From: Oscillibacter sp.
GTDB taxonomy: Bacteria; Bacillota; Clostridia; Oscillospirales; Oscillospiraceae
Direction of reading: 5' to 3'
Length of the DNA stretch: 62,721 nucleotides
Assembly: GCA_017527365.1 (NCBI GenBank)
Contig: JAFXQD010000052.1
Span: forward strand, 1-62,721
Positions 1-12,377 of this stretch are shown here, piece after piece. The notes under the pieces were generated by a model. The model searched no databases and was not told the DNA's origin. It was given only the letters and a program-made list of their open reading frames with translations. Positions within the stretch are counted from its first letter, which is position 1, and every line of letters starts with the position of its first letter. Position numbers and translations under genes: made by a program.

Positions 1-19
1 GCGTGAATAAAATCGTCCG

Positions 20-47
20 GCCGCGCAAATCTGACGGTTTGCGCGGC
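20..47. terminator. Perfect inverted repeat, possible terminator
   Basis: Ten bases (GCCGCGCAAA) are repeated as a perfect inverted copy after an 8-base loop. No T-run follows on either strand, so it may be a weak terminator or part of the damaged mobile element next to it. Confidence 0.4.
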
Positions 48-134
48 TGGGCGTCATATCTTTACTCGCTCCCTGTTCCCCGACCCACTTTGAGCCGGGG
101 ATTTTTCTTGTCAATCCGCCTCCACAGGCGACGC

Positions 135-749
135 TTACAACAAACAGATTGTATAATTCCTGTCCGTAGCCACGCCAACGCAAATCTGGTTTCCGGATAA
201 TCCCCGCAGTCGGCTTCCGTCTTCATGAACGACAATATCACGCATTCGCACGGTATAATAAGTTTCGTCCAAGTATGCGCTTCCAGACAACACAATCTCC
301 CTTTGGTAATCTTGAAGCGTTAAAAACAGCTTGTTAAGCCAATATTTGGAGGTTGAAAAGGCGTTTTTGTTGCTCCATGAAGCAGCGCTTAAACTCACGT
401 GTCGAAATACGCTCAGGCAATATTCTATCCATTCGCTTACGGAGATTTTCCGCGAATCAAAAATCGTATTGGTTGTCGGACGGAATTTATGGCCGTGTGC
501 GCACTTGTAGCGTTGTATTCCGTTGCTGTCCAAACCATCTCGTTTAAACTGATTCGTTGAGCATATCGGACAGCTTTTGGGCACGAATGAATTAATCATC
601 AACGCTTCGCCCGTATCCGCCAACGCCGGGTGGCGTTGGCGGTAATGTTCCTGATAATTGAGTTTCATGAACTCCTGCGTAGGCGTCATATTTGCGCTCC
701 TATCCCACGGCGTTTCTTTACGGGACGTCGTCTTTTTGCCCTTTGCCAC
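135..749 (-). pseudogene. Truncated IS transposase (zinc ribbon plus start of DDE domain)
   Basis: The 204-residue product has an N-terminal zinc-ribbon (CPIC at about residues 60-63, then a second C/H pair around 80-85) of the kind found in IS1595/ISXO2-like transposases, followed by a helical region and the first catalytic-looking segment LDETYY near residue 161. It stops shortly after, at a TAA codon, where full-length relatives continue for over 100 residues with the remaining acidic residues. The start is a GTG. No inverted terminal repeats were identified. The composition is clearly AT-richer than the downstream chromosome, in keeping with an acquired and decayed element. Family assignment is by motif only. 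Confidence 0.65.
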
Positions 750-1452
750 CCTTTGTTGCTCCCTTTCTCAATATGCAACAAATGATAGCAATTTCAGCCC
801 CCATCTGCAAGCGGGGAGTTTATAATATATATATATATATGCTATGTATATACGTCCATCTCATGCAGGACACGAAAGTCAAGGAAATTGACAAGTTGGA
901 GGGGATTGACAAATTCATGGAGGTATGAGATAATGAAACTGGTAGGGAATCCCCTGTCAGCCTCTGTCGGCTATACCGATTTGTTACCGGAAATTTACCG
1001 GAGCGAAGCCGGCACTGGCAGGGCTAATTAGGACTAACTGTGACTGGAAATGGTCGAACAGTGCGACAAATGGTATGAACTGTGACTAAAAAGGCGCGGC
1101 AGGGAGACAAGCCCCATAAAGGTCAAGGACATGATACTGAAAGAAGCCGTTGACGAAAGACGCGGAAGTTATGGGTAAAACGGGGGATTCCGGCAACTTT
1201 TCCTTGTGATTTCGGGCAGCGAAAAGTGTCGTAAAACCAAGGCGGCAATGATATTCGGCGATTGAAATTCGCGCCCTGCGCGCAGACCGGCGTCCCGGAG
1301 CGCCCGACGGAGAGCAGAGAGCGCTAAGAACAGTCGCCGACTATTATTAGGGAAAGAATTTCGTTGCAGGGGCGAATCTTTCCCGCAAATTGCCCTCAAA
1401 TGCGCGAATCCTGTCGCTATTTGACAGAATTTAAAGGAAACGGGATGATTTT
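750..1452. other. Gene-poor stretch with no supported gene
   Basis: About 700 bases without a convincing reading frame. It contains an (AT)n tract near 824-841, a good promoter-like pair at 906-934, and a short frame around 1120-1175 that reads like the tail of a lost protein (contains KDMILKEAVDERRG). It looks like debris from a mobile element lying between the transposase fragment and the patatin operon. Confidence 0.5.
906..934 (+). promoter_or_regulatory. Sigma-A type promoter with no obvious gene behind it
   Basis: TTGACA at 906-911 and GATAAT at 929-934 with a 17-base spacer. No gene begins for some 500 bases. It may serve the patatin operon with a very long leader, or be a relic. Confidence 0.45.
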
Positions 1453-2352
1453 ATGAAGTACGCGCTTGTCTTTGGGGGCGGCGGCGGGAAAGGCGCCTAT
1501 GAAATAGGCGTTTGGAAAGCGCTCGATGAGATGGGATACGCGAATCTCTTTTCCTGCGTTATCGGAACTTCCGTAGGCGCGTTAAACGGCGCTTTGTTCT
1601 GCCTGAAAAATATCCAAGACGCGGAGCAGGCTTGGCTCCGGGATTTGGGCGAAGCGCAACTGCTGCGGTTGAACTTGAACCCGAAAAAACTGCCCGAAAG
1701 CCTTCCCGCCGGACTTTTCAATCAGGAAGGATTGAAAAATCTGCTCGAACGCCACCTGCCGGACGTTATGCCCGACACGCCGGACTTTTACGTGTGCGCG
1801 TCCGAAATCTCCGGGCGCGACGAAAAGCCGAATTTTATTCAGGCGCTCTTTCGACCGGAAAAATATAAGGCGCAATACATAAAAATGAACGGGCTTTCCC
1901 GTCGGGAGGCGGCGCCGTTTTTGCTGGCGTCCGCCGCGATTCCTATCGTTTTCTCTCCCGTGCGCAAGCGTCGGGACGGCGGAATGCTTGCGCGGAATAA
2001 TGTCCCTTACCATGAAGCCGCCCGCATGGGATACGAAAAAATTCTCGCGGTTTCTCTGGGCAATGATGCCGTTCACGTAGAAAGGCTTGATATTTGCGAG
2101 GAGCGGCGCGGCACAAAGTACGAACAGGAACCGATTTCTTCCGAAAACAACGGCTTTTCCGACGCGCTTATTTTATGCCCCACCGTTTCGTTGGAGAGAG
2201 GCCCGTTTTCCGGGCTTCTGGACTTTTCCGAAAAGAACGCGAAATGGCGCATGGAACTGGGATATGAAAATTGCATGAAGCTGTACCGCGAAAACATCGA
2301 GTCGTTTTTCGCGGAAGCGCCCCGTATTCCGAATTGTCGTGCGCAACTCTAA
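1453..2352 (+). CDS. Patatin-like phospholipase
   Basis: A 299-residue patatin-family lipid acyl hydrolase. Visible are the glycine-rich oxyanion loop (GGGGGKG, residues 8-14), the nucleophile elbow GTSVG with Ser40, and the partner aspartate in DGG at residues 175-177, so the Ser-Asp dyad is intact. There is no signal peptide, so it is expected to act in the cytoplasm on the inner leaflet or on free lipids. The start at 1453 is preceded by a poor AAAGGA site about 14 bases away; an ATG at 1445 runs into a stop after three codons. The next gene begins 13 bases downstream with a strong ribosome site, so the four genes to 8658 look co-transcribed. Patatin enzymes serve as membrane-damaging effectors in several bacterial defence systems; that role here is inferred from its neighbours. 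Confidence 0.88.
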   Translation: MKYALVFGGGGGKGAYEIGVWKALDEMGYANLFSCVIGTSVGALNGALFCLKNIQDAEQAWLRDLGEAQLLRLNLNPKKLPESLPAGLFNQEGLKNLLERHLPDVMPDTPDFYVCASEISGRDEKPNFIQALFRPEKYKAQYIKMNGLSRREAAPFLLASAAIPIVFSPVRKRRDGGMLARNNVPYHEAARMGYEKILAVSLGNDAVHVERLDICEERRGTKYEQEPISSENNGFSDALILCPTVSLERGPFSGLLDFSEKNAKWRMELGYENCMKLYRENIESFFAEAPRIPNCRAQL

Positions 2353-2365
2353 GGAGGCAAACGCT

Positions 2366-4972
2366 ATGAATTTTCGCATGGAAGGGCTCGCGTCAACGGA
2401 ACTGGCGGAGAAGCTGGAGAAGCAAATCGCCGGAATTGACCGCATACGGAAAATAAATTCCTACGGCCTGATTTCGCCGGAAACCGACGCCGCGCTTGCG
2501 TCCGTAAGAGACAGGGCGGAGGCTTTGCGTCGAAAATTCCGAACCGGCGAGTATGAAATTGCCGTGGTCGGGCTTGAAAAGGCGGGAAAAAGCACGTTCG
2601 CCAACGCCCTGATGGGAAACGACATTCTTCCCGCAAAGCCGCTCCGCTGCACGTATACCACCACCAGCGTTCGCTGGGCGGAGGAAGACCGCGCCGAAAT
2701 CACCTTTTTCGGCGCGGAGCGTTTTATCGAGGCCTTCCGGGCCAATCTGCGGAAAATGGGCATTCCCCACGCGGACACCCTGACGCCCGCGTCGCTTTCT
2801 TTGGAGGATTACCGCAGAGAATTTGACAAATTAGGCGAAGAGACAAAAAGCTATTATCGAAACTCCGTCAACGAGGACATCGAGACCATCCTGAAAAATT
2901 ACTCCTCGACGCTCGGCAGATATATCGGGGCGCCCCCGCTTCTTGTCTCCGGCGCGGAGCGGATTTCCGCGCCGGAATTTCGGCGCTTTATCGAAATTCC
3001 GGAATACGCGATTGCCGTCAGGGAAATCACCGTCTATTCCTCCAAACTGGATAGAATGCGTAACGCCGTCATCTACGATGTTCCGGGCTTTGACTCCCCT
3101 ACGGAAATGCACAAGTCGCAGACACGCGACAAAATGCGCCGCTCCGACGCGATTCTGCTGGTCACAAACGCCGAGACGCCCAGCTTTAACGGGCCGTCGC
3201 TGGATATGTTCCGGACGGTCACGGACGACGACGGGCTGACGCTGGGGGATAAGCTGTTCGTTTTCGCCAACAGAGCCGACACGGTGGAAAACCTGCCCGC
3301 CAATCTGGAGGACTTGAAAAACGAGTTGCTCCGATACCGGATGATGCCCAAAAGCCATTTCGGGCGCGTCGTGCCGGGCTCCGCGAAGGGGCGCTTGCAG
3401 GCTCTGGGCGTCCTGCCGGGGCAGGATGTCGCCAACGCCCTGAAAAGCAAAGGGCGCTCCGACGGCGTGAAGGAAATCTACGAAAAGCTCGCGGAATACA
3501 ACCGCACGGAACGCGCAAAAGTTCTGGAACGCCGCGCCGGAAAAGTGGAAAGCGACATCCGGCGCATTTTCGAGGAACTCTTTCAGGGGCAGGAGGAAAG
3601 CGCGTCCGGGTTTTGCCGCGCCAGAGACAGCCTGACGCTGGAAAAGTTCACGTCGGCTCAGAACGCCATCAAGGCGCTGTTGGAGGGCTACCGAACCGAC
3701 CTGAACGAAAAGTTTTCCCGCGAAAAGCGTCCTTTGACAAACAAGCTGCTGGCGGAAGTCGTGAAAAAAATCGACTCTGCCGGAGAGCTCGGCGTGACGG
3801 ACGAGGAAATGGAGCGTTACGGCAAGGGAATCGAAGTGCCCGTGCAGAACCCCACGGCGGTGGACGTGGAACTCCGCAAGGATAAGCGCCCCCGGATTTA
3901 CGACGCGTTCCGCAAGGGCGTTGTGAATCTGGCGGAGGAGGAGCGCCGCGCCTGCGAAAGCCGGATTGAAGAACTGATGCTCAAGGGAATCGGCGTTTTC
4001 CCCCAAAGCGATACGGGCGGGGAACTGCGGAAGCGCGTTCGGGGCTATATCGAGTCCGTGAAGGGGGAAATTTCCGGCAGGGGGTATTACGACAGCCTTA
4101 TTTTCCGCTTTTCCGACGACATTTTTAATATCCTCCTCCAATTTCCGTTCGGAGATATGGCAAGATTCAATTATTTCGACAAAAACCGGGATATTTTTTA
4201 CAGCCTCTCCATGTTCGACCGCGACGCCGACCCGTCGAAGCCGCCCGAAGAACAGCCCTTGCTCTACCAGCTTCTTTTCCACCGCGTCCCCGACCATGCG
4301 GGAAACGCTCCCGGCGCCGACGCGGACAGGAAAGTTCTTGACGCGGCGCTGTCGCTGGCGGAATCTTACGTAATGGAGCCGCCGGAAGGCCGCTTGAAAA
4401 GGCTTATCGCCGCGTATGCGCGGGAGAATCAAAACGACGCGCTTCCGCAGATGAAGGAAGCGATTCAAAGTCTGCTGGCGTCGCGCCTGCAAACGAGCAG
4501 AGAGGAACGCAAACGCCTTCTGGCGGACTGGATAGAATTTGAAGTGGAAGCGGACGTGGGCGAGGACGACGCGGACGTAAAACCGGAGCCCCGCGAAAAG
4601 AGACTGCCTCACGACGAGAACTGGTATAAAGCTCAGTTCCGGGACCGCCCTTCCCCGACGTATGACACGGTGAAAGCGGATTTGAACGCGGATATTGACA
4701 TTTTGCGCGGGGTTCTGGAAAACGCCGTCGTTCCGGCTGTCTGCATTGAGACGCCGTTCCTTTCGTTGGAACGCGCCCTGATTCGCAACATTCTGGAGGA
4801 CATCGAACGCGGAAAGGGATTTCAGGACTTCCTCTCCGAGAACATGCCGCTCATCGCCGCCGAGGAGTACCGCATTTTGGACGAGCGGGAGCAGAAGCGC
4901 AATGTCCAGAAAGCCATTCGCATGGAAATTCGGGACATTCTCAAGGAAATGAACGGGGAGGGCTCGTTATGA
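2366..4972 (+). CDS. Dynamin-like GTPase A
   Basis: An 868-residue large GTPase of the bacterial dynamin family. The G1 P-loop GLEKAGKST lies at residues 69-77, G3 is DVPG (about residue 236) and G4 is NRAD (about 306), followed by a long helical region rich in charged residues that would form the stalk. I chose ATG 2366 because AAGGAGG lies at 2351-2357; a GTG at 2339 in the same frame lies inside the patatin gene and has no ribosome site. It ends by overlapping the next GTPase through ATGA, which implies translational coupling and probably a 1:1 complex. Paired dynamins in bacteria form hetero-oligomers that tether or remodel membranes. Substrate and trigger cannot be read from the sequence. 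Confidence 0.85.
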   Translation: MNFRMEGLASTELAEKLEKQIAGIDRIRKINSYGLISPETDAALASVRDRAEALRRKFRTGEYEIAVVGLEKAGKSTFANALMGNDILPAKPLRCTYTTTSVRWAEEDRAEITFFGAERFIEAFRANLRKMGIPHADTLTPASLSLEDYRREFDKLGEETKSYYRNSVNEDIETILKNYSSTLGRYIGAPPLLVSGAERISAPEFRRFIEIPEYAIAVREITVYSSKLDRMRNAVIYDVPGFDSPTEMHKSQTRDKMRRSDAILLVTNAETPSFNGPSLDMFRTVTDDDGLTLGDKLFVFANRADTVENLPANLEDLKNELLRYRMMPKSHFGRVVPGSAKGRLQALGVLPGQDVANALKSKGRSDGVKEIYEKLAEYNRTERAKVLERRAGKVESDIRRIFEELFQGQEESASGFCRARDSLTLEKFTSAQNAIKALLEGYRTDLNEKFSREKRPLTNKLLAEVVKKIDSAGELGVTDEEMERYGKGIEVPVQNPTAVDVELRKDKRPRIYDAFRKGVVNLAEEERRACESRIEELMLKGIGVFPQSDTGGELRKRVRGYIESVKGEISGRGYYDSLIFRFSDDIFNILLQFPFGDMARFNYFDKNRDIFYSLSMFDRDADPSKPPEEQPLLYQLLFHRVPDHAGNAPGADADRKVLDAALSLAESYVMEPPEGRLKRLIAAYARENQNDALPQMKEAIQSLLASRLQTSREERKRLLADWIEFEVEADVGEDDADVKPEPREKRLPHDENWYKAQFRDRPSPTYDTVKADLNADIDILRGVLENAVVPAVCIETPFLSLERALIRNILEDIERGKGFQDFLSENMPLIAAEEYRILDEREQKRNVQKAIRMEIRDILKEMNGEGSL

Positions 4973-7797
4973 AGGTTGTGCTGTTGGACGGAACGCCGCA
5001 GGACAAGCAGGCGCTTGTGGAAAACTGGAAAAATCCCGACGCCGTTTTCCTGCTCCGCTCCGAAGAATTGAAGCTCTACGAATACATTGACAAGTTCATC
5101 AAAAAAAGCGACGTGCTATACCGCATTCGCATTTGCTATGAGCTGACCGGGCTGGATGTCGATTACTGCGAAGTGGAGAACCCCGACGCGGATTTCGCGC
5201 AGAACATCGGCGCGGTCGAAAGCTGCCATGCCGAAACGCTCAGCGAACTGCTCTCACTCGTCAATCCCGCGAAAACTTCCTACGTAACCGTGAACGGGGA
5301 TATTGGCGCGGACGAGAAGAAAATAAAGGCGACGCGAGCCCAGTTGGGGGAAATTGTCCAGCAAATGATATATTTGCAACTGCCGTTGCATAAAATCAGG
5401 GTGCGCACGGCCAAGGAAATGAAAACCGCCGAGTCCGTCCGCGTGTTTGAAAAGCGCCTTGGGGAACTCCGGGAGGAAACGCGTCGGGCGCTCTTGAAAA
5501 TGGAGCGCGACAAGGGCGCTTTCTATGATTCGGTATTGTGGGAAGGAGTTTACGGAAGCCTGAGCCGGATTTTCGACTATCTGTCGCAATCCGCGCAGGA
5601 TGAGATGAAAATCGCCGTGGCCGCCACCAAAAAAACCGGGAAGAGCGTCATTGTCAACAGCATTATCGAGCAGGAACTGGCGCCCACCAGTCTGGAGCAG
5701 GCCACGCCCAATAACTGCGTTTACAGGCGGCGGGAGGACCAGTACAGCCTGCAATCCGAAGGCGGGAAGCTCCGGGGTTTTGGCGCGGGCAAGGAAGGCG
5801 CCGCCGGACTGCGCTCGGAATTGACGAAAGAGTTCAAGCAGGCGCAGAAGTCGGAGGGCATTGCCATTCCCGATATGAACATTGGCTATATGTCCAAGGC
5901 GCGGGGAATCAGCTCCTATGTCATTACGGACACGCCGGGACCCGACCGCGAAGGTCACGAAGGCGCGGAAGAGATTGCGCGTAAGGCTGTCCGGGGCGCG
6001 GATATGGCGATTTACGCGATTGACTACTCCAAGCACCTGACCAAAGACGAAGCCGCGTATCTAAAATGGATTGTCGATGAGTTTAACAAAAACGGGAAAT
6101 ACTATTCCCTGATTTTCGATGTCAACAGGATGGACACGCGCTATCAGGACAAGGGACACAAGAGCGTCCCGCGAAGCCTGGATTTCATCCGGAACGAGCT
6201 GATTAAAATCGATTCGAGCTTCCAATCCTGCATTCTGTTCGGAACGTCCGCGCTGACCTATTTCTACGCGCTGGCGGCGGCGCAGATTCCGGGATGCGAA
6301 ACGCTGGCGGAGCAAGGCGGCCTGTCGGAGCTTCCGGAACTTCTTGAGAAGTACAAGGAAGACGACGACATTTTTGGCGAGGAAGACGCGGCGGGCGACG
6401 ACGCGGACCCGAAAACCGTCTTAAATTTCCTTGACGAAAGCGTAAGCCGCCTGAAAAGATTCCACAGCATTCAGGCGCGGTCGCTGGAAGACCTCAAGCA
6501 ATTCAGCGGAATGCAAAGCCTGTTAAGCTACGTCGGCTATGTGGCGCGGGAAAAGGCCAGAACGGAAAAACTCAACTCGCTGATGCACAAAATTGACCGG
6601 GAATATGCGGATATTGTGAATTTGTTTCACTTTCAGGAACTCCAAGACGCCCTTGCCAAAAATCGTGACAGGCTGGAGGAAATTCAGAAACTTCTGAGCG
6701 AGTTCGCGGGGGAAGTCGGGAAAATTGACGACAAGGATTTCCCGGAAGTCTATCAGCGTTGCAAGGCGGGGGAAGTCAAAAGCGACTGGATTCGTGAATA
6801 CGGACAGAGATACCCGTTCCACTGGGAAGACGTGGCCAAGGCGGTTATCGGCGATTTGAAAGCGCGACTGGAAATCCGCAGCCTTCTGGATGGCATAGTC
6901 AACAATACAATGCGGGCGCTTCTGAAAGACGAATATCGAACGAAGCAGGAGCAGGCCGGCATCGGGCATAAAAAGAAAATAGGCGGTCGTGAGGAAGTGC
7001 TCCTTGGAGCGCAGGAAATTAAGGAGTGCGTCTGGACAGCCGCAGAAAAGGCCGTCAATACCCTGCCCGCCAAAATTAACGAGAGTTTCATTGAGGCGGA
7101 CAATATCGTGCGGAGGAACTACGAATTAGCTGAAAAGGATATGGAAGCCGTCTTCCAATCGCGTCAAGAACGGCTTAAGGAGACTGTGGAATACTATTCC
7201 CGCCGGATGTTGGAGGATTACTCTATCCCCTTTGACATGGAAACCCCGGTTTTCGAGTTTGAGTTTCCGCGGGACAGCATTGGCAATGTCAAAGCGAATA
7301 TCCGGGTCAAACTGGACGACCTCAAAGACATGGCGGCGAGATTGGAAAACGCCCTGAGGAACGCGCCGTTGACTCGCAGTGCGTCGACTCTGTTCGGGCA
7401 CCTTCTGAATTTGCTGAGCTTGATGGCTCTTGACGAGAAGGACATCCCCCCTATGTACTATAATGCGGACGCGTTCATCATGGAATATCAGAATAACTTT
7501 GCCTACAGCCTCGTTGCGGATTTGTCACGAGAGCGCTATGAGCGCGAGTATCAAAGCGACTTGAACAGAGCGGTGAAAGTGCGGAGGGATTACTTCGACT
7601 CCATCCAAAAGCAAATGGACGAGGAATCGCGCCGGATGCAAAACTTCGCCGTCCGCGTCTACAATATGCTGGACATCAGCGGAAAGTTGGATATGGAAAA
7701 ACAGCGGATTGAAAAACAGCGCGAGGATTTGAAGCGCGTCCAAGGCGCTGTGGCGGGGTTGCAAGACGGGTGGGGCAATGTCCGCCCGGAGTCCTGA
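4969..7797 (+). CDS. Dynamin-like GTPase B
   Basis: A 942-residue second large GTPase, translationally coupled to the first by an ATGA overlap. An N-terminal region of about 200 residues of unknown type precedes the GTPase domain. The P-loop ends in TGKS (Lys225), but the usual first glycine is replaced (ATKKTGKS), and the residue after Ser is Val rather than Thr. G3 reads DTPG and G4 NRMD. The C-terminal 500 residues are predicted mostly helical with strong coiled-coil character, as in a dynamin stalk. The altered P-loop suggests a slow or regulatory GTPase partnering with GTPase A. Assignment to the dynamin superfamily rests on motifs, size and pairing. Confidence 0.8.
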   Translation: MKVVLLDGTPQDKQALVENWKNPDAVFLLRSEELKLYEYIDKFIKKSDVLYRIRICYELTGLDVDYCEVENPDADFAQNIGAVESCHAETLSELLSLVNPAKTSYVTVNGDIGADEKKIKATRAQLGEIVQQMIYLQLPLHKIRVRTAKEMKTAESVRVFEKRLGELREETRRALLKMERDKGAFYDSVLWEGVYGSLSRIFDYLSQSAQDEMKIAVAATKKTGKSVIVNSIIEQELAPTSLEQATPNNCVYRRREDQYSLQSEGGKLRGFGAGKEGAAGLRSELTKEFKQAQKSEGIAIPDMNIGYMSKARGISSYVITDTPGPDREGHEGAEEIARKAVRGADMAIYAIDYSKHLTKDEAAYLKWIVDEFNKNGKYYSLIFDVNRMDTRYQDKGHKSVPRSLDFIRNELIKIDSSFQSCILFGTSALTYFYALAAAQIPGCETLAEQGGLSELPELLEKYKEDDDIFGEEDAAGDDADPKTVLNFLDESVSRLKRFHSIQARSLEDLKQFSGMQSLLSYVGYVAREKARTEKLNSLMHKIDREYADIVNLFHFQELQDALAKNRDRLEEIQKLLSEFAGEVGKIDDKDFPEVYQRCKAGEVKSDWIREYGQRYPFHWEDVAKAVIGDLKARLEIRSLLDGIVNNTMRALLKDEYRTKQEQAGIGHKKKIGGREEVLLGAQEIKECVWTAAEKAVNTLPAKINESFIEADNIVRRNYELAEKDMEAVFQSRQERLKETVEYYSRRMLEDYSIPFDMETPVFEFEFPRDSIGNVKANIRVKLDDLKDMAARLENALRNAPLTRSASTLFGHLLNLLSLMALDEKDIPPMYYNADAFIMEYQNNFAYSLVADLSRERYEREYQSDLNRAVKVRRDYFDSIQKQMDEESRRMQNFAVRVYNMLDISGKLDMEKQRIEKQREDLKRVQGAVAGLQDGWGNVRPES

Positions 7798-7911
7798 ACG
7801 CGCCGCGTTCCGTTGCCGGATAAGCGAAAACAACGCCGTTGGTCTGACCTGACGGGCGGTTTTGCCGCCTGTCGTCGGGGCAATGGCACAAAGCGAAAAG
7901 GAGGACTTACC

Positions 7912-8658
7912 TTGAGCCAGTTCTTTTTTAATCCTCTGGTCTTTCAGGCCGCCCGCAACCGCTACCGCGACCGCTTGGAGGAGATGAATCCCATTCTGTT
8001 TCCCGACGGACAGAAATCGTTGCTGGACAAGGACATGTCCCCGGAGGAAGCGGACAAGGCGACGGAGGACGCGCTGGAAATTCGCCTTCATCAGGGAAGC
8101 GTGTCGGGGAATCTGGCGTTCTTCGCCAAGACGTTTTCTGACGGGAAAGTCAGTCCCGACCTTGCGGAATCCGTGCGGAACATCGTCCTGTCTATAGACG
8201 GCAACCGCCCGCTTTTAGAGCGGGGAATACGGTCCTGTTTTGGGGATAAGACGCTTCCGGCGTTCCTTATGGGCATGGTCGTCGGCATGGGCGCGGGCGC
8301 GTTCGTGACCGCGCAATTCTTCTTGAAGCGGCCCAAAACCGTAATTAGCGCGACGCATGTTTCCGCTAAAGTTCTCCACGCAATCGCAAAAGCCGCGAAC
8401 CTTTCGGCGGCGAATGCGGTTCTTCTCGCGCAGAGCGACGCTCCCGCCGCGTCGGGCGGCGCGTCAAATTCTCCGGAAAATTGGCCTGTCGTTTTGGCGG
8501 CGGCATTGGCGGCGGCGGTTGTGGGAATCGCCCGTTATCGGAGAGCGAAGAAGAAACCCGCAAGCCCGGCGCAAGGCGAAATATGCAATCAAAAGCAGGC
8601 TCATGAAGTACTGAAACTGACGGAGTGCCTCGCCGACATTTACAGGAACGAACGGTAA
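7912..8658 (+). CDS. Two-helix membrane protein of the patatin/dynamin operon
   Basis: A 248-residue protein of no recognised family. I place the start at TTG 7912 because AAAGGAGG at 7897-7904 lies 7 bases before it; the in-frame upstream ATG at 7813 has no such site. The first 125 residues are soluble, then come two hydrophobic segments (one containing FLMGMVVGMGAGAFVTAQFF, the other WPVVLAAALAAAVVGIARY) separated by an Ala/Ser-rich linker, and a basic tail. It lies 114 bases behind GTPase B on the same strand. A membrane anchor or membrane sensor for the dynamin pair is a plausible role, inferred from context only. Confidence 0.72.
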   Translation: MSQFFFNPLVFQAARNRYRDRLEEMNPILFPDGQKSLLDKDMSPEEADKATEDALEIRLHQGSVSGNLAFFAKTFSDGKVSPDLAESVRNIVLSIDGNRPLLERGIRSCFGDKTLPAFLMGMVVGMGAGAFVTAQFFLKRPKTVISATHVSAKVLHAIAKAANLSAANAVLLAQSDAPAASGGASNSPENWPVVLAAALAAAVVGIARYRRAKKKPASPAQGEICNQKQAHEVLKLTECLADIYRNER

Positions 8659-8912
8659 GCGCGAATTTGGCGTTGATTCCGGGGGGAAGGCGTTCGCCGA
8701 AGTGGCGCGGCGAACTGCGCGACCCGGCGTATTTTCGGACGGTTCGGCTTGTCGACGGCGGCGCGGGGAGTGCGCGGGCGCACGGGCGGAACCCCGCCCC
8801 CGCGAGCTTTACGAACTCAGCCGCCCCGCCGACGCGCAGCGCATACTCCGCGCAAAAACGGGGCATACTGTCCCGGCGTCCCCGCACGGGGACAGATTGG
8901 AGGTTGCCTGTC

Positions 8913-9131
8913 ATGACGGACAAAATCGCCCTGACGCTGGCTATCGTCGGCGCGTTGAACTGGGGCAGTATCGGGCTGTTCGGGTTCGACTTCGTCGGCT
9001 TCCTGTTCGGCGGACAAATGGCGGCGCTTTCCCGCGTCGTCTTTACGCTGGTCGGGCTCGCGGGGCTGTGGTGCGTTATGCTCCTGTTCCGCGACAACGA
9101 ATCGACGGAGCCAAAGCCCCGTATGGCGTAA
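8913..9131 (+). CDS. DUF378 family small membrane protein
   Basis: A 72-residue protein that matches the DUF378 pattern: an N-terminal helix with NWG (residues 15-17), then GLFGFD, and a second helix before a short charged tail. The start is ATG 8913 behind GGAGG at 8899-8903; the frame is open far upstream but without a plausible start. Members of this family are common in Firmicutes and have no established function. It stands alone on the plus strand, followed by a repeat and a terminator. Confidence 0.8.
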   Translation: MTDKIALTLAIVGALNWGSIGLFGFDFVGFLFGGQMAALSRVVFTLVGLAGLWCVMLLFRDNESTEPKPRMA

Positions 9132-9193
9132 GCCTTCCGAATCCCCCGGCGCGTTGCGCGTCCGGGGGACGCGTGTTTTCCGCCCGTGCGGTC

Positions 9194-9330
9194 GCGCAAG
9201 ACCCCCTTTGTCACTGCGTGACATCTCCCCCAAAGGGGGAGAGACAAACCCGCCGGGCATTGCAAAAAAGCCCTCCCCTTTGGGGAGGGCGGCGCGGAGC
9301 GCCGGGAGGGGGCAAGGTCTGATATAGCTT
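9194..9330 (+). repeat. Interspersed two-hairpin repeat, copy A
   Basis: About 137 bases made of two modules: a hairpin with CTCCCCCAAAGGGGGAG, then about 30 bases, then CCCTCCCCTTTGGGGAGGG with a GGCGCGGAGCGCC arm, ending TCTGATATAGCTT. Copy C (40405-40540) matches over its whole length in the same orientation; copy B is inverted. It does not encode protein. It has the look of a non-autonomous REP/MITE-like element. Confidence 0.8.
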
Positions 9331-9360
9331 GACGCCTCTGCCCGGAACGGCGGGAGGCGC

Positions 9361-9391
9361 AAAAAAACGCCCCCGCTCCGGGCGGGGGCGC
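9361..9391 (-). terminator. Rho-independent terminator
   Basis: GC-rich stem CGCCCCCGC/GCGGGGGCG with a 4-base loop; read on the minus strand it is followed by a run of seven T, as expected behind the zinc-ribbon gene at 9461-9739. Confidence 0.75.
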
Positions 9392-9460
9392 GAACGTTTG
9401 CAGACGCGGGGCGGCGCAAGCCTCTTAGCAACCCACGCGGCGCGGGGCGGTCGGACGGCT

Positions 9461-9739
9461 TCAAGCCTGCTCGCGCATACGGGCGAAACACTCGCTGCAA
9501 TAGACGGGGCGGTCGGACTTGGGCTCGAACGGGACGCGGGCGACGCCGCCGCAGTTGGCGCACACGGCCTCGAAATACTGCCGGGGGCCGCGGGCGGCGT
9601 TCTTGCGGGCGTCGCGGCAGGACTTGCACCGCTGGGGCTCGTTCTGGAAGCCGCGCTCGGCGTAGAACTCCTGCTCCCCGGCGGTGAAAACGAACTCGTT
9701 GCCGCATTCCTTGCAGACAAGAACCTTATCTTCGTACAT
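9461..9739 (-). CDS. Zinc-ribbon protein, CxxC-x17-CxxC type
   Basis: A 92-residue protein with four CxxC pairs: CKEC (9-12), CKSC (about 38-41), CANC (about 60-63) and CSEC (about 81-84). The first and second pair, and the third and fourth, are spaced as in small zinc-ribbon proteins of the CxxC-x17-CxxC class. It is preceded by AGGAGAGGG on the minus strand and followed by a strong terminator. The SigH-like gene ends only 35 bases upstream, so the two may share a transcript. The biological role of the family is unknown. Confidence 0.8.
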   Translation of the reverse strand: MYEDKVLVCKECGNEFVFTAGEQEFYAERGFQNEPQRCKSCRDARKNAARGPRQYFEAVCANCGGVARVPFEPKSDRPVYCSECFARMREQA

Positions 9740-9774
9740 CTTTTACCCTCTCCTGTGATGGAATTATATCGCGT

Positions 9775-10425
9775 TCAGCTTTCGCTGAGGTCGCCGGAAG
9801 GCGTGCGCCGCGCAACCTTGCGCCGGATGCGCTGCACGGCGTTGTCCACGGACTTGGGGGGCTTGCCGACGGCGCCGGCGATTTCCCCGCATGAAAGGCC
9901 GTCCAGATAGTACCCTAAAACCACTGCTTCAAATTCGGACAACCGCTTCCGGACACTGGAAAGGAGAGCCGTTGCGCGCTCCCGGTCGATGAGGTACTCT
10001 TCGGGGTCGCGCTGGGCCAAGGGGGGCAAAAGTGTGCGGGCATTGCCGTCAAAACCGGGAGAATTAAGGGAAACGGACTGGGTAGACGCTTTTCGTTTGT
10101 CGCGCACGGAATCGCGCAGGAGGGAGGAAAGGCGGCTTCGGACGCAGATTTCCGCGAACGTGCGGAAAGACGCCTCTTTCCGGGGGTCGTACTCCCGGAT
10201 GGCCTTTATCAGCCCCAACATGCCCTCCTGAATCAAGTCCTCGCTGTCCCACCCGGCGAGGAAGAAGGGGCGGGCGCAACTGCGGACAAGGCGGTAATGG
10301 CGCCGCACAAGGGCGTCCTCGGCGCGGGGGTCGCCGGAGGCGGCGCGTCGGCAAAGCTCCTCGTCGGGGACGGGGGCGGCTTCGGGGGGCTGTCCGTAGG
10401 CGGATTCTGTGGGCGAGTCAAACAT
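9775..10425 (-). CDS. sigH: RNA polymerase sigma factor, SigH-like
   Basis: A 216-residue sigma-70 family protein. Region 2 reads DLIQEGMLGLIKAIREYD with the downstream FRTFAEICVRSRL block, and region 4 contains YYLDGLSCGEIAG and KSVDNAVQRIRRK, all close to the pattern of the early-sporulation factor SigH, which also has this length. The in-frame TTG at 10461 is part of the -35 box of a consensus promoter, so translation must start later; ATG 10425 is the first candidate and lies exactly where transcription should begin. The presence of coat genes nearby fits a sporulating host. SigH is the best call; a related SigH-like factor cannot be excluded. Confidence 0.82.
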   Translation of the reverse strand: MFDSPTESAYGQPPEAAPVPDEELCRRAASGDPRAEDALVRRHYRLVRSCARPFFLAGWDSEDLIQEGMLGLIKAIREYDPRKEASFRTFAEICVRSRLSSLLRDSVRDKRKASTQSVSLNSPGFDGNARTLLPPLAQRDPEEYLIDRERATALLSSVRKRLSEFEAVVLGYYLDGLSCGEIAGAVGKPPKSVDNAVQRIRRKVARRTPSGDLSES

Positions 10426-10431
10426 GGGGGT

Positions 10432-10461
10432 ATTATAACCGTCCTCAATAGAAAATGTCAA
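10432..10461 (-). promoter_or_regulatory. Consensus promoter of the SigH-like gene
   Basis: On the minus strand TTGACA (10456-10461) and TATAAT (10432-10437) with an 18-base spacer. Only six bases separate the -10 box from ATG 10425, so the message would begin at or next to the start codon. Confidence 0.8.
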
Positions 10462-10553
10462 GCGTTTTCTCCTGTCATTCGCAAATTTTTTCTTTAGAAA
10501 TTTGGTGAATTTGGCGGTTTCAGTCCAAATATTTACTGTTTTAGTTCATATTT

Positions 10554-11645
10554 TTACTTGTTCCCGTCTCCGGGAAAATCGGGCGACAACCGCGCCGCGC
10601 CGGCAACCGGATTGGCGGAAAAGCCTCCAGGGAGCGGCTTCCCCAAGTGCCTGTACGCCGCCTCCGTGACGCAGCGCCCGCGGGGGGTGCGCGTCAGGAA
10701 GCCCAACTGCATCAGGTACGGCTCGTAAACGTCCTCCAACGTCACGGCCTCTTCCGCAATCGTGGCGGCCAAGGTGTCCAGCCCCACGGGGCCGCCCCGG
10801 TAGTGGTCGATAATCGCGCCCAGCATACGGCGGTCGACGGGGTCAAGCCCCAAGTAGTCGATTTCCAACGCACACAGCGCCATATCCGCGACGGCTCTTG
10901 TAATCACGCCGTCGGCGCGGACTTGCGCGTAGTCCCGGACGCGCCGCAACATGCGGTTGGCGATACGGGGCGTGCCCCGGCTCCGCCGCGCTATCTCGAA
11001 GGCGCCTTCCGGCTCGATGTCCACGCGCAGGATTCCCGCGCTCCGCGTGACGATAAGGGCAAGCTGTTCGGCGCTGTAGAGTTCCAGCCGCAGGGTCACG
11101 CCGAAGCGGTCGCGCAGGGGTGCGGACAACTGCCCGGCGCGGGTCGTGGCGCCTATCAGCGTAAAACGGGGCAAGTCCAGCCGGATGGAGTTCGCGCTGG
11201 GCCCGCGCCCCACGATGATGTCAAGCGCGTAATCCTCCATAGCCGGGTACAGAATCTCCTCGACGCTCCTGTCAAGGCGGTGTATCTCGTCCACAAAGAG
11301 GATGTCGCCCTCGTTCAAGTTCGTGAGGAGCGCGGCAAGGTCTCCGGGCTTCTCGATGGCGGGCCCCGAAGTCACGCGGATATTGACGCCCATTTCCTGC
11401 GCGATAATCCCGGCAAGGGTCGTTTTGCCAAGGCCGGGCGGCCCGTGCAACAGGGTATGGTCAAGCGATTCCCCGCGCTTTTTCGCCGCCTCTATGAAGA
11501 TTTGCAACTGCTCTTTCGCCTTCTCCTGTCCGACGTAATCCCGCAGGGCTTTCGGACGGAGCGAGCCCTCCTGCGCGTCCTCCTGAAGGAAGGTCTTGGC
11601 GACAAGCGGCTCCTCGTAAATGTCGTTCCCGAAGTCAATGCTCAT
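10554..11645 (-). CDS. ruvB: Holliday junction branch migration ATPase RuvB
   Basis: A 363-residue AAA+ helicase that drives branch migration of Holliday junctions with RuvA. Walker A GPPGLGKT is at about residues 66-73, Walker B is VDEIHRL, and sensor I lies in IGATTRAG; the C-terminal winged helix contains the conserved [11 protein letters not shown]. Length is normal for the family, with a slightly long C-terminal tail. It is the last gene of ruvC-ruvA-ruvB. Unusually, a repeat element of about 115 bases separates it from ruvA. Confidence 0.97.
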
Positions 11646-11666
11646 AGTTCACGCCCGTTTCCGTCA

Positions 11667-11782
11667 TTTGCCCCTCCCGGCGCTACGCGCCGCCCTCCCC
11701 AAAGGGGAGGGATTTTTCGCAATTCCCGACAGGTTTGCGTCTCCCCCTTTGGGGGAGATGTCACGCAGCGCCAGAGGGGGTT
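11667..11782 (-). repeat. Interspersed two-hairpin repeat, copy B
   Basis: Inverted relative to copies A and C. The same two modules are present (CCCTCCCCAAAGGGGAGGG and CTCCCCCTTTGGGGGAG). It lies between ruvA and ruvB within one operon and abuts the ruvA stop region. Confidence 0.8.
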
Positions 11783-11783
11783 G

Positions 11784-12377
11784 TCATTTCATCATCTTTT
11801 TGAGGCTCTGCCGTATGAGTTCCTCCACCGACAGGCTTGCCGCGTCCGCGCCTTTGAGCGCCGTCTGGATTTCCTGCGGAGAATAACCCAGCGCGGCGAG
11901 GGCTTGCGCCGCCTCCGCCGCCCTGCCCATGGCGGACGGCGGCGCGCTTCCGGACGCGTCCGGAGCGGCGAACGCCTCCCCGGCAAGGCGGTCTTTCAAC
12001 TCTAAAATCATGCGCTTGGCGATTTTCTTCCCGATTCCCGGCGCGGCGGTCAAGGCGCGTTCGTCCTCCGCGACCAGCGCCATTTTCAGCGCGTCGGGCG
12101 TCATGGCAGAGAGTATCGCAATCGCGGCTTTCGGCCCCACGCCCGAAACGCCCAGCAACATGCGGAACGCGTCCAGCTCCCTTTGCGTTGCGAAGCCGTA
12201 CAGGTCAAAAATGCCGTCGCCGACTTGCAGGAACGTATAGAGCTTTCCGCGCTGTCCGCGCCTCAACGCCGAGAGCGTGTTCCCGGTCGTGCGGCAGGCG
12301 TAGCCGACGCCCCCGCAGTCGATGACCGCCAGCCCCGGCAAGAGTTCCGCGACAACGCCGTCAAGATAGTAAAACAT
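11784..12377 (-). CDS. ruvA: Holliday junction binding protein RuvA
   Basis: A 197-residue protein that clamps four-way junctions and loads RuvB. The N-terminal OB-fold begins MFYYLDG, the paired helix-hairpin-helix motifs include GVSGVGPKAA and APGIGKKIAKRM, and the C-terminal domain III (RuvB-contacting) follows an Ala/Pro-rich linker. It begins 15 bases after ruvC. The repeat B starts right behind its stop codon. Confidence 0.97.
   Translation of the reverse strand: MFYYLDGVVAELLPGLAVIDCGGVGYACRTTGNTLSALRRGQRGKLYTFLQVGDGIFDLYGFATQRELDAFRMLLGVSGVGPKAAIAILSAMTPDALKMALVAEDERALTAAPGIGKKIAKRMILELKDRLAGEAFAAPDASGSAPPSAMGRAAEAAQALAALGYSPQEIQTALKGADAASLSVEELIRQSLKKMMK

Follow-up and report, generated by a model that had tools for sequence, protein, structure and literature searches.

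A rare operon pairing two dynamin-like GTPases with a membrane protein and a patatin-like phospholipase in Oscillibacter, tentatively read as a mobile conflict module

A contig from an Oscillibacter sp. genome (GenBank assembly GCA_017527365.1, contig JAFXQD010000052.1, 62,721 nucleotides; this stretch, the entire contig G000:C84, is referred to below as the window) contains a single operon of four genes, encoding a patatin-like phospholipase, two dynamin-like GTPases, which we call A and B, and a membrane protein. Relatives of A and B are found as an adjacent pair at other loci (numbered L; genomes are numbered G), frequently followed by a two-part membrane partner, proteins C and D. Gene content, intact motifs, the A-B order, the frequent C/D partner, rarity and mobile or defence-like surroundings are the observed basis for our preferred reading, held tentatively: the operon may encode a mobile, membrane-attached dynamin-pair module of conflict or defence, with the patatin as a locus-specific effector. 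The four genes are:

1453..2352, forward strand: patatin-like phospholipase, 299 residues; Pfam PF01734, E 5e-24; Ser40 and Asp175 intact; proposed locus-specific effector.
2366..4972, forward strand: dynamin-like GTPase A, 868 residues, first of the pair; Pfam Dynamin_N, E 1e-17; homologues nearly full length (L011, L012, L014 and others).
4969..7797, forward strand: dynamin-like GTPase B, 942 residues; evidence from Pfam Dynamin_N, E 7e-9 at residues 215-371, and from alignment.
7912..8658, forward strand: membrane protein, 248 residues; homologous to protein C of L012 in its N-terminal part; the remainder occupies the position of D and has two hydrophobic segments.

A preliminary description of this DNA had reported four same-strand genes with tight spacing, and all four open reading frames (ORFs) were confirmed on the forward strand. 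The spacing is indeed tight at two junctions, a gap of 13 nucleotides (nt) between patatin and A and a 4-nt overlap (ATGA) between A and B, and is loosest at the third, where 114 nt separate B from the membrane protein gene. Good ribosome sites are present across the operon: A starts at ATG 2366, just downstream of AAGGAGG (the mechanical ORF begins at GTG 2339), B starts at ATG 4969 within the overlap, and for the membrane protein the most probable start is TTG 7912, preceded by GGAGG, not 7813. We judge the four genes to lie beyond chance, because Pfam matches above cut-off were obtained for three of the four proteins, and homologues were found elsewhere for A, B and the N-terminal part of the fourth. 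The GC content of the system is 0.555 against 0.618 in the rest of the window (patatin 0.538, A 0.573, B 0.536; RuvA/RuvB, 0.64). A promoter scan found three against 3.2 expected, and Rfam returned no match in window positions 1-10000. By eye, a GC-rich inverted repeat without a T-run is visible at 7851-7873, inside the 114-nt gap.

Both GTPases belong to the dynamin superfamily, with Dynamin_N scores of 64.7 bits (A) and 36.3 bits (B) against a cut-off of 27, and with readable G motifs; their lengths and their ATGA junction are as first described. A carries GLEKAGKS at G1 (Lys75), DVPG at G3 and NRAD at G4, and B carries ATKKTGKS, DTPG and NRMD at the corresponding positions. The first glycine of the P-loop is replaced by alanine in all five B proteins aligned, and the N-terminal region of B, about 190 residues, is common to the family and has no Pfam match. 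Identity to the window proteins is 28-38% for A (five proteins) and 26-30% for B (four proteins). The pairwise identities of the A proteins track those of the B proteins (r 0.89; ten pairs from five genomes, not independent), where A of L065 was paired with B of L013 as partners in G1135, though they lie on two contigs. Of 14 A and B proteins, only the second B of L014 has a 19-residue hydropathy window above 1.6 (1.79); in the other 13 even the best window falls below that cut.

The arrangement of the pair is well kept. Among nine A-bearing loci with a visible 3' side (the window, L011 in G322, L012 in Ruminococcus sp. UBA3665, L014 in Riflebacteria, L015, L016, L065 in G1135, L067 in G1138 and L072 in G1133), eight have B directly 3' of A, with gaps of -4 to +24 nt; the partial B proteins of L065 and L067 match the B profile at E 1.5e-20 and 1e-47. 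L015 holds the C-terminal part of A only, at a contig edge and with a stop inside that stretch, and L069 (512 residues, weak A match) was left out. At L014 (3634-16653) there are three B-type dynamins, of which the first alone was counted; a protein with a DO-GTPase1 match and another ORF lie between them, and the third B is shorter (688 residues). An alignment of two B proteins, applied to the species-genome collection through two short patterns, gave 294 matches, of which 7 encode relatives, a lower bound. Duplicate entries were dropped: L003 equals L011; L001, L002, L019, L024, L035 and L059 equal the window; L020 equals L022; L004 and L007 equal L060; and L023, L062-L064, L066 and L071 repeat known places. 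The genome samples of separate searches overlap.

Downstream of the pair, a small protein without a transmembrane (TM) segment, C, followed by a TM protein, D, is found at five of the eight loci where 350 nt or more can be seen after B (present in the window, as a fusion, and in L011, L012, L014 and L015; the other loci counted are G1017, L017 and L018). L013 has C alone after B, where its contig ends. In the window, the N-terminal half of the membrane protein and C of L012 are homologous (BLASTP E 7e-6; z 11.8 against 1000 shuffles), and the gene is apparently a C-D fusion, an assignment that is firm for C of L012 and otherwise made by position. The two-helix protein of the preliminary description holds up in that two hydrophobic segments are present (residues 114-132 and 191-209); they are marginal, at 1.74 and 1.73 against a cut of 1.6, and the start had to be moved to TTG 7912. 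D is strongly hydrophobic at all four other loci (2.75-3.08), while the second D-like ORF of L014 has no such segment. Three of 15 D pairs score above z 3: L011-L015 (4.3), L012-L014a (3.9) and the two D-like ORFs of L014 (18.2). The C/D partner may supply the membrane anchor for the dynamins.

The system is rare. Counting the window's own genome throughout, A was found in 2 of 86 genomes of the genus, in 2 of 398 of a phylum sample and in 4 of 200 of the family, three of the latter being GTPase-domain matches only; B was found in 1 of 147 genomes of the order, in 2 of 391 of the class and, at phylum level, in 5 of 398, where three of the five again match in the GTPase domain only. A core, vertically inherited set, which the preliminary description had named among the findings that would speak against it, is therefore rejected on the genus and phylum-sample counts of A, and the genes are accessory. 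On the 3' side of the operon, a block of chromosomal genes for RuvA, RuvB, a sigma factor and a zinc protein is common to congeneric genomes, and similarity to these genomes ends at about 9459-9467; none of A, B, the patatin or the membrane protein is found at this site at E 1e-4 in seven relatives read for at least 6 kb past the block (L050, L052-L056 and L058). In G1106, the nearest relative with a visible flank, the same chromosomal site carries a rubrerythrin gene and then AbiLi (E 7e-84) and AbiLii (E 2e-13), the pair lying at 7231-9275 of L050 on the reverse strand, so that the site beside the RuvAB block is a possible defence hotspot. In G322, genes for BrxA, BrxB and BrxC (BREX) begin 256 nt 3' of D, with a UvrD-type helicase gene upstream. 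An integrase ORF lies 181 nt 5' of A in G1138 (L067), and integrase, Fic and IrrE-like genes lie within about 10 kb at L012. The defence-island-like surroundings proposed earlier are thus borne out by the BREX genes and the AbiL pair, and the operon is accessory, apparently mobile and horizontally spread. Plasmid searches gave no close relatives of A or B, the best matches covering 32% and 29% of the query.

Paired bacterial dynamins are already known, and so are patatin effectors. Eleos, the LeoA and LeoBC proteins encoded by LeoABC of enterotoxigenic Escherichia coli, likewise consists of tandem dynamin-like GTPases in one operon; the window system differs in having the extra C/D membrane partner, plus the patatin. 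The kinship to Eleos put forward earlier finds no support in the curated LeoA model, by which membership in LeoA was rejected (NCBIfam NF041922, 13.3 bits for B against a cut-off of 325, none listed for A), and weak support in PADLOC, where LeoBC matches residues 33-269 of A (26.9 bits, E 6e-7, model positions 49-160 of 601) and B scores 12.2 bits, in a library that shows no cut-off. Dynamins and Eleos are both counted among defence systems in an excerpt of PMC11811056. DynA of Bacillus subtilis shares the superfamily, a phage-related membrane role and NCBIfam matches in the GTPase domains; it was rejected as the identity of A or B, which reach 37.1 and 22.2 bits with DynmDynABac (cut-off 1600) and are encoded here by two separate genes, in contrast to the two dynamins fused into one protein in DynA (PMC6104087). 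Campylobacter jejuni Cj-DLP1 and Cj-DLP2 are also an adjacent dynamin pair, and the A profile matches Cj-DLP1 (5owv) at E 4e-9, with the best stretch confined to profile positions 45-124, in the GTPase domain. The excerpted text of PMC6104087 states that bacterial dynamin genes are mostly paired in operons, that the pair of Campylobacter works as a 2:2 tetramer in tethering membranes, and that the operon partner of this pair is a putative HcpA-like beta-lactamase. What is new here is a dynamin pair that lies outside the curated LeoA and DynA models and has a recurrent membrane partner in two parts.

The patatin is intact, as had been described, with GTSVG (Ser40), DGG (Asp175) and a glycine-rich oxyanion loop, and the Pfam match together with the GXSXG and DG[GA] dyad places it among patatin-like phospholipases. 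Patatins serve as effectors of CBASS, and the window protein shares the fold and the Ser-Asp dyad with the CBASS lipase and with the anti-phage phospholipase of DS2. Both were rejected as identifications, at 16.4 against 200 bits (CBASS_lipase) and 21.9 against 400 bits (DS2_1_antiphage), and Pfam finds no nucleotidyltransferase, as CBASS would have, among the four genes. A genomic island of E. coli O118 has been described with patatin-like phospholipases and a dynamin-like protein (rdcB) named together (PMC13182975); we compared it by description only, and the passage of that source does not state that the patatin and dynamin genes form an operon. Among the matches listed for the open-licence literature, no title or abstract describes the window operon or the sibling cassette presented below.

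In the mechanism that we propose, A and B would assemble into a hetero-oligomer, like other dynamin pairs of bacteria, and C/D would recruit it to the inner membrane. Disturbance of the membrane, for example by phage entry or lysis proteins, would alter the GTP-driven assembly of A and B, which would constitute sensing; the altered assembly would activate the patatin to cut membrane phospholipids, and lipid degradation would halt the infected cell as an abortive defence. Another gene also suggests that the effector may be exchangeable: at L012, an Mbeg1-like alpha/beta hydrolase gene (E 2e-62), a different lipase-fold gene, lies 15 nt 3' of D, giving two different lipase-fold genes at two loci.

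The patatin may instead be a bystander that shares transcription with a self-contained A-B and C/D system, acting in defence or membrane protection by keeping the membrane intact as DynA does; we regard this as possible, and nearly as likely as the effector reading. The preliminary description had presented the four genes as one combination, and as a conserved unit this does not hold: A-B is kept and C/D is often present, and no patatin lies 5' of A at any of the four other loci with a visible upstream gene. These have a 166-residue ORF (L011), a divergent sugar transferase gene (L012), the integrase ORF (L067) and a rubrerythrin gene (L070); L070 is an N-terminal piece of A at another contig edge of the same genome as L015, and its rubrerythrin is assigned to the L015 operon by inference only. 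Upstream DNA is visible for about 0.9 kb in L014 and about 0.2 kb in L065, and tblastn found no patatin across L011-L018. Patatins are present at E 1e-10 in 9 of 149 other sampled genomes of the window's family and a second time in the window's own genome, and these ten, the paralog included, share 27-34% identity with the window patatin in the aligned part; a single plasmid record has a relative, at 28% identity over 69%. DynA, moreover, protects without a lipase partner (PMC8844932, excerpt). Speaking for the patatin as a functional component are its 13-nt spacing, the lower GC content that it has in common with A and B, and the second lipase-fold gene beside D in L012.

Several further observations weigh against an effector-bearing defence module. 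The link between patatin and dynamins rests on one operon. In codon usage the four genes differ from core genes no more than core genes do among themselves. An orphan A is present in the window's own genus (L072, 3729-6290), after a RadA-like gene and with intact G motifs, and the 20 kb read there contains no B, patatin or C/D. B is found without A or C/D in two Aquificota genomes (L017, 724-3129; L018, 2095-4506) and without C/D in G1017, where a Mutator-type transposase gene is next. The G4 aspartate of A is missing in L014 and L065, two of eight proteins. Low hydropathy is not peculiar to A and B, as among comparison dynamin ORFs only two of L005 reach 1.6. Of ten C pairs, only window-L012 and window-L014 (z 3.1) lie above z 3, and the D half of the window protein exceeds z 3 against no other D protein; on these comparisons C/D as a family appears to be partly positional. 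Viral contigs scanned with the B-family alignment gave 141 candidates and no relatives, and phage records gave no match. The border to Leo proteins is not sharp either, since B of G322 matches most of the PADLOC LeoA model (E 3e-14, 51 bits, positions 103-540 of 559).

The order of G1017 was searched for A in 22 genomes, with no match (B had been the match there), and no A was found at E 1e-5 in the Aquificota assemblies of L017 and L018. The Aquificota B genes are followed by a TrkA/K+-channel-type gene, and on the other side lies a shikimate kinase gene (checked for L017); B without A in this phylum is possibly a housekeeping branch of the family. Such a setting between metabolic and ion-channel genes would suit a module of membrane stress or repair, responding to antibiotics or envelope stress as IniA or DynA do, in which the patatin would clear damaged lipids and the dynamins would reseal, phage not being the target. 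The biology of the dynamin superfamily agrees with this, and excerpts of PMC8844932 report both membrane surveillance by DynA against antibiotics and, upon infection, a DynA of B. subtilis that turns static at the membrane and delays phage lysis. The sporadic distribution, the BREX genes, the AbiL site and the integrases fit a conflict role better, and we consider a stress or repair module unlikely.

The only plasmid match of B led to a second arrangement of paired dynamins, found in four loci:

L021, 6739-15138: sibling cassette on the E. coli plasmid pTW10590_133.
L060, 197-10046, reverse strand: sibling cassette in G443, a Bacillota genome.
L073, 6026-16531: sibling cassette on the Lactococcus cremoris plasmid pB26B.
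L074, 6534-16452: sibling cassette on the Treponema saccharophilum plasmid pTS2.

L073 has four more near-identical Lactococcus records, and by a near-identity search the cassette is present in 1 of 5,426 complete E. coli genomes. Its order is dynamin, dynamin, tail-anchored protein, DUF87 ATPase, colicin-type nuclease and a small immunity-type gene. In the tail-anchored protein the TM segment ends at most 5 residues from the C-terminus, and in Lactococcus a related small protein without TM precedes it. The DUF87 ATPases are 35-45% identical among the four loci. All four encode a nuclease, LHH in E. coli and WHH/Colicin-DNase in the other three, followed by a SUKH gene in three and DUF6985 in one, and a WYL regulator lies upstream in three; defence and toxin immunity are the typical settings of WYL regulators and SUKH proteins. 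No hydropathy window of 1.6 is present in seven of the eight sibling dynamins. Against the window's B profile the sibling dynamins score E 1e-14 to 2e-20, where other dynamins at hand reach 1e-11 at best, and the N-terminal region of the second sibling dynamin has no detectable homology to that of B (hhalign probability 0.1%). On four E. coli cassette proteins, PADLOC gave weak LeoA and HerA/mad8 matches only. The two arrangements are alike in their two dynamins, small membrane protein and effector-type genes, and differ in that the sibling has a DUF87 ATPase and a nuclease-immunity pair instead of a lipase; judged by these comparisons, the sibling cassette represents a distantly related design, not the same family.

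The nucleases in all four sibling cassettes, the SUKH genes in three, and the reduced vesicle release on leo deletion described in an excerpt of PMC4159319 would be expected of a module for toxin export or interbacterial antagonism. Pfam names no immunity-type protein among the four window genes, and for the window operon this explanation seems very improbable to us. More speculatively, and with considerable doubt, mobile conflict systems built on paired dynamins with a small membrane partner could be a general class, the pair acting as a membrane-bound sensor and switch and the effector being exchangeable. If so, the effector would be a lipase, patatin or Mbeg1-like, in the family of the window, and in the sibling, found on plasmids of three phyla, a nuclease of colicin type together with an immunity-type protein. 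Bacterial dynamins are common; this locus offers a compact, testable case for how a dynamin might sense membrane damage, or act on it, in immunity, and the sibling cassette hints at a recurring arrangement.

Other features near the operon are:

135..749, reverse strand: transposase-like ORF fragment near the left contig edge, InsA zinc ribbon (Pfam, 22.3 bits, below the cut-off of 26.1).
8913..9131, forward strand: DUF378 protein (Pfam, E 8e-25), flanking and probably outside the system.
9459..12377, reverse strand: conserved chromosomal block of treble-clef zinc protein, sigma factor, RuvB and RuvA, at which DNA similarity to congeneric genomes ends (about 9459-9467).

The adjoining transposase debris reported earlier is present as the fragment at 135-749, left of which the contig ends, and its assignment is less secure, the InsA match being sub-threshold. 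Beside the RuvB and RuvA genes, a 122-nt repeat occurs at 9201-9322 and 11660-11781 in inverted orientation, 87% complementary, and may be an interspersed palindromic element.

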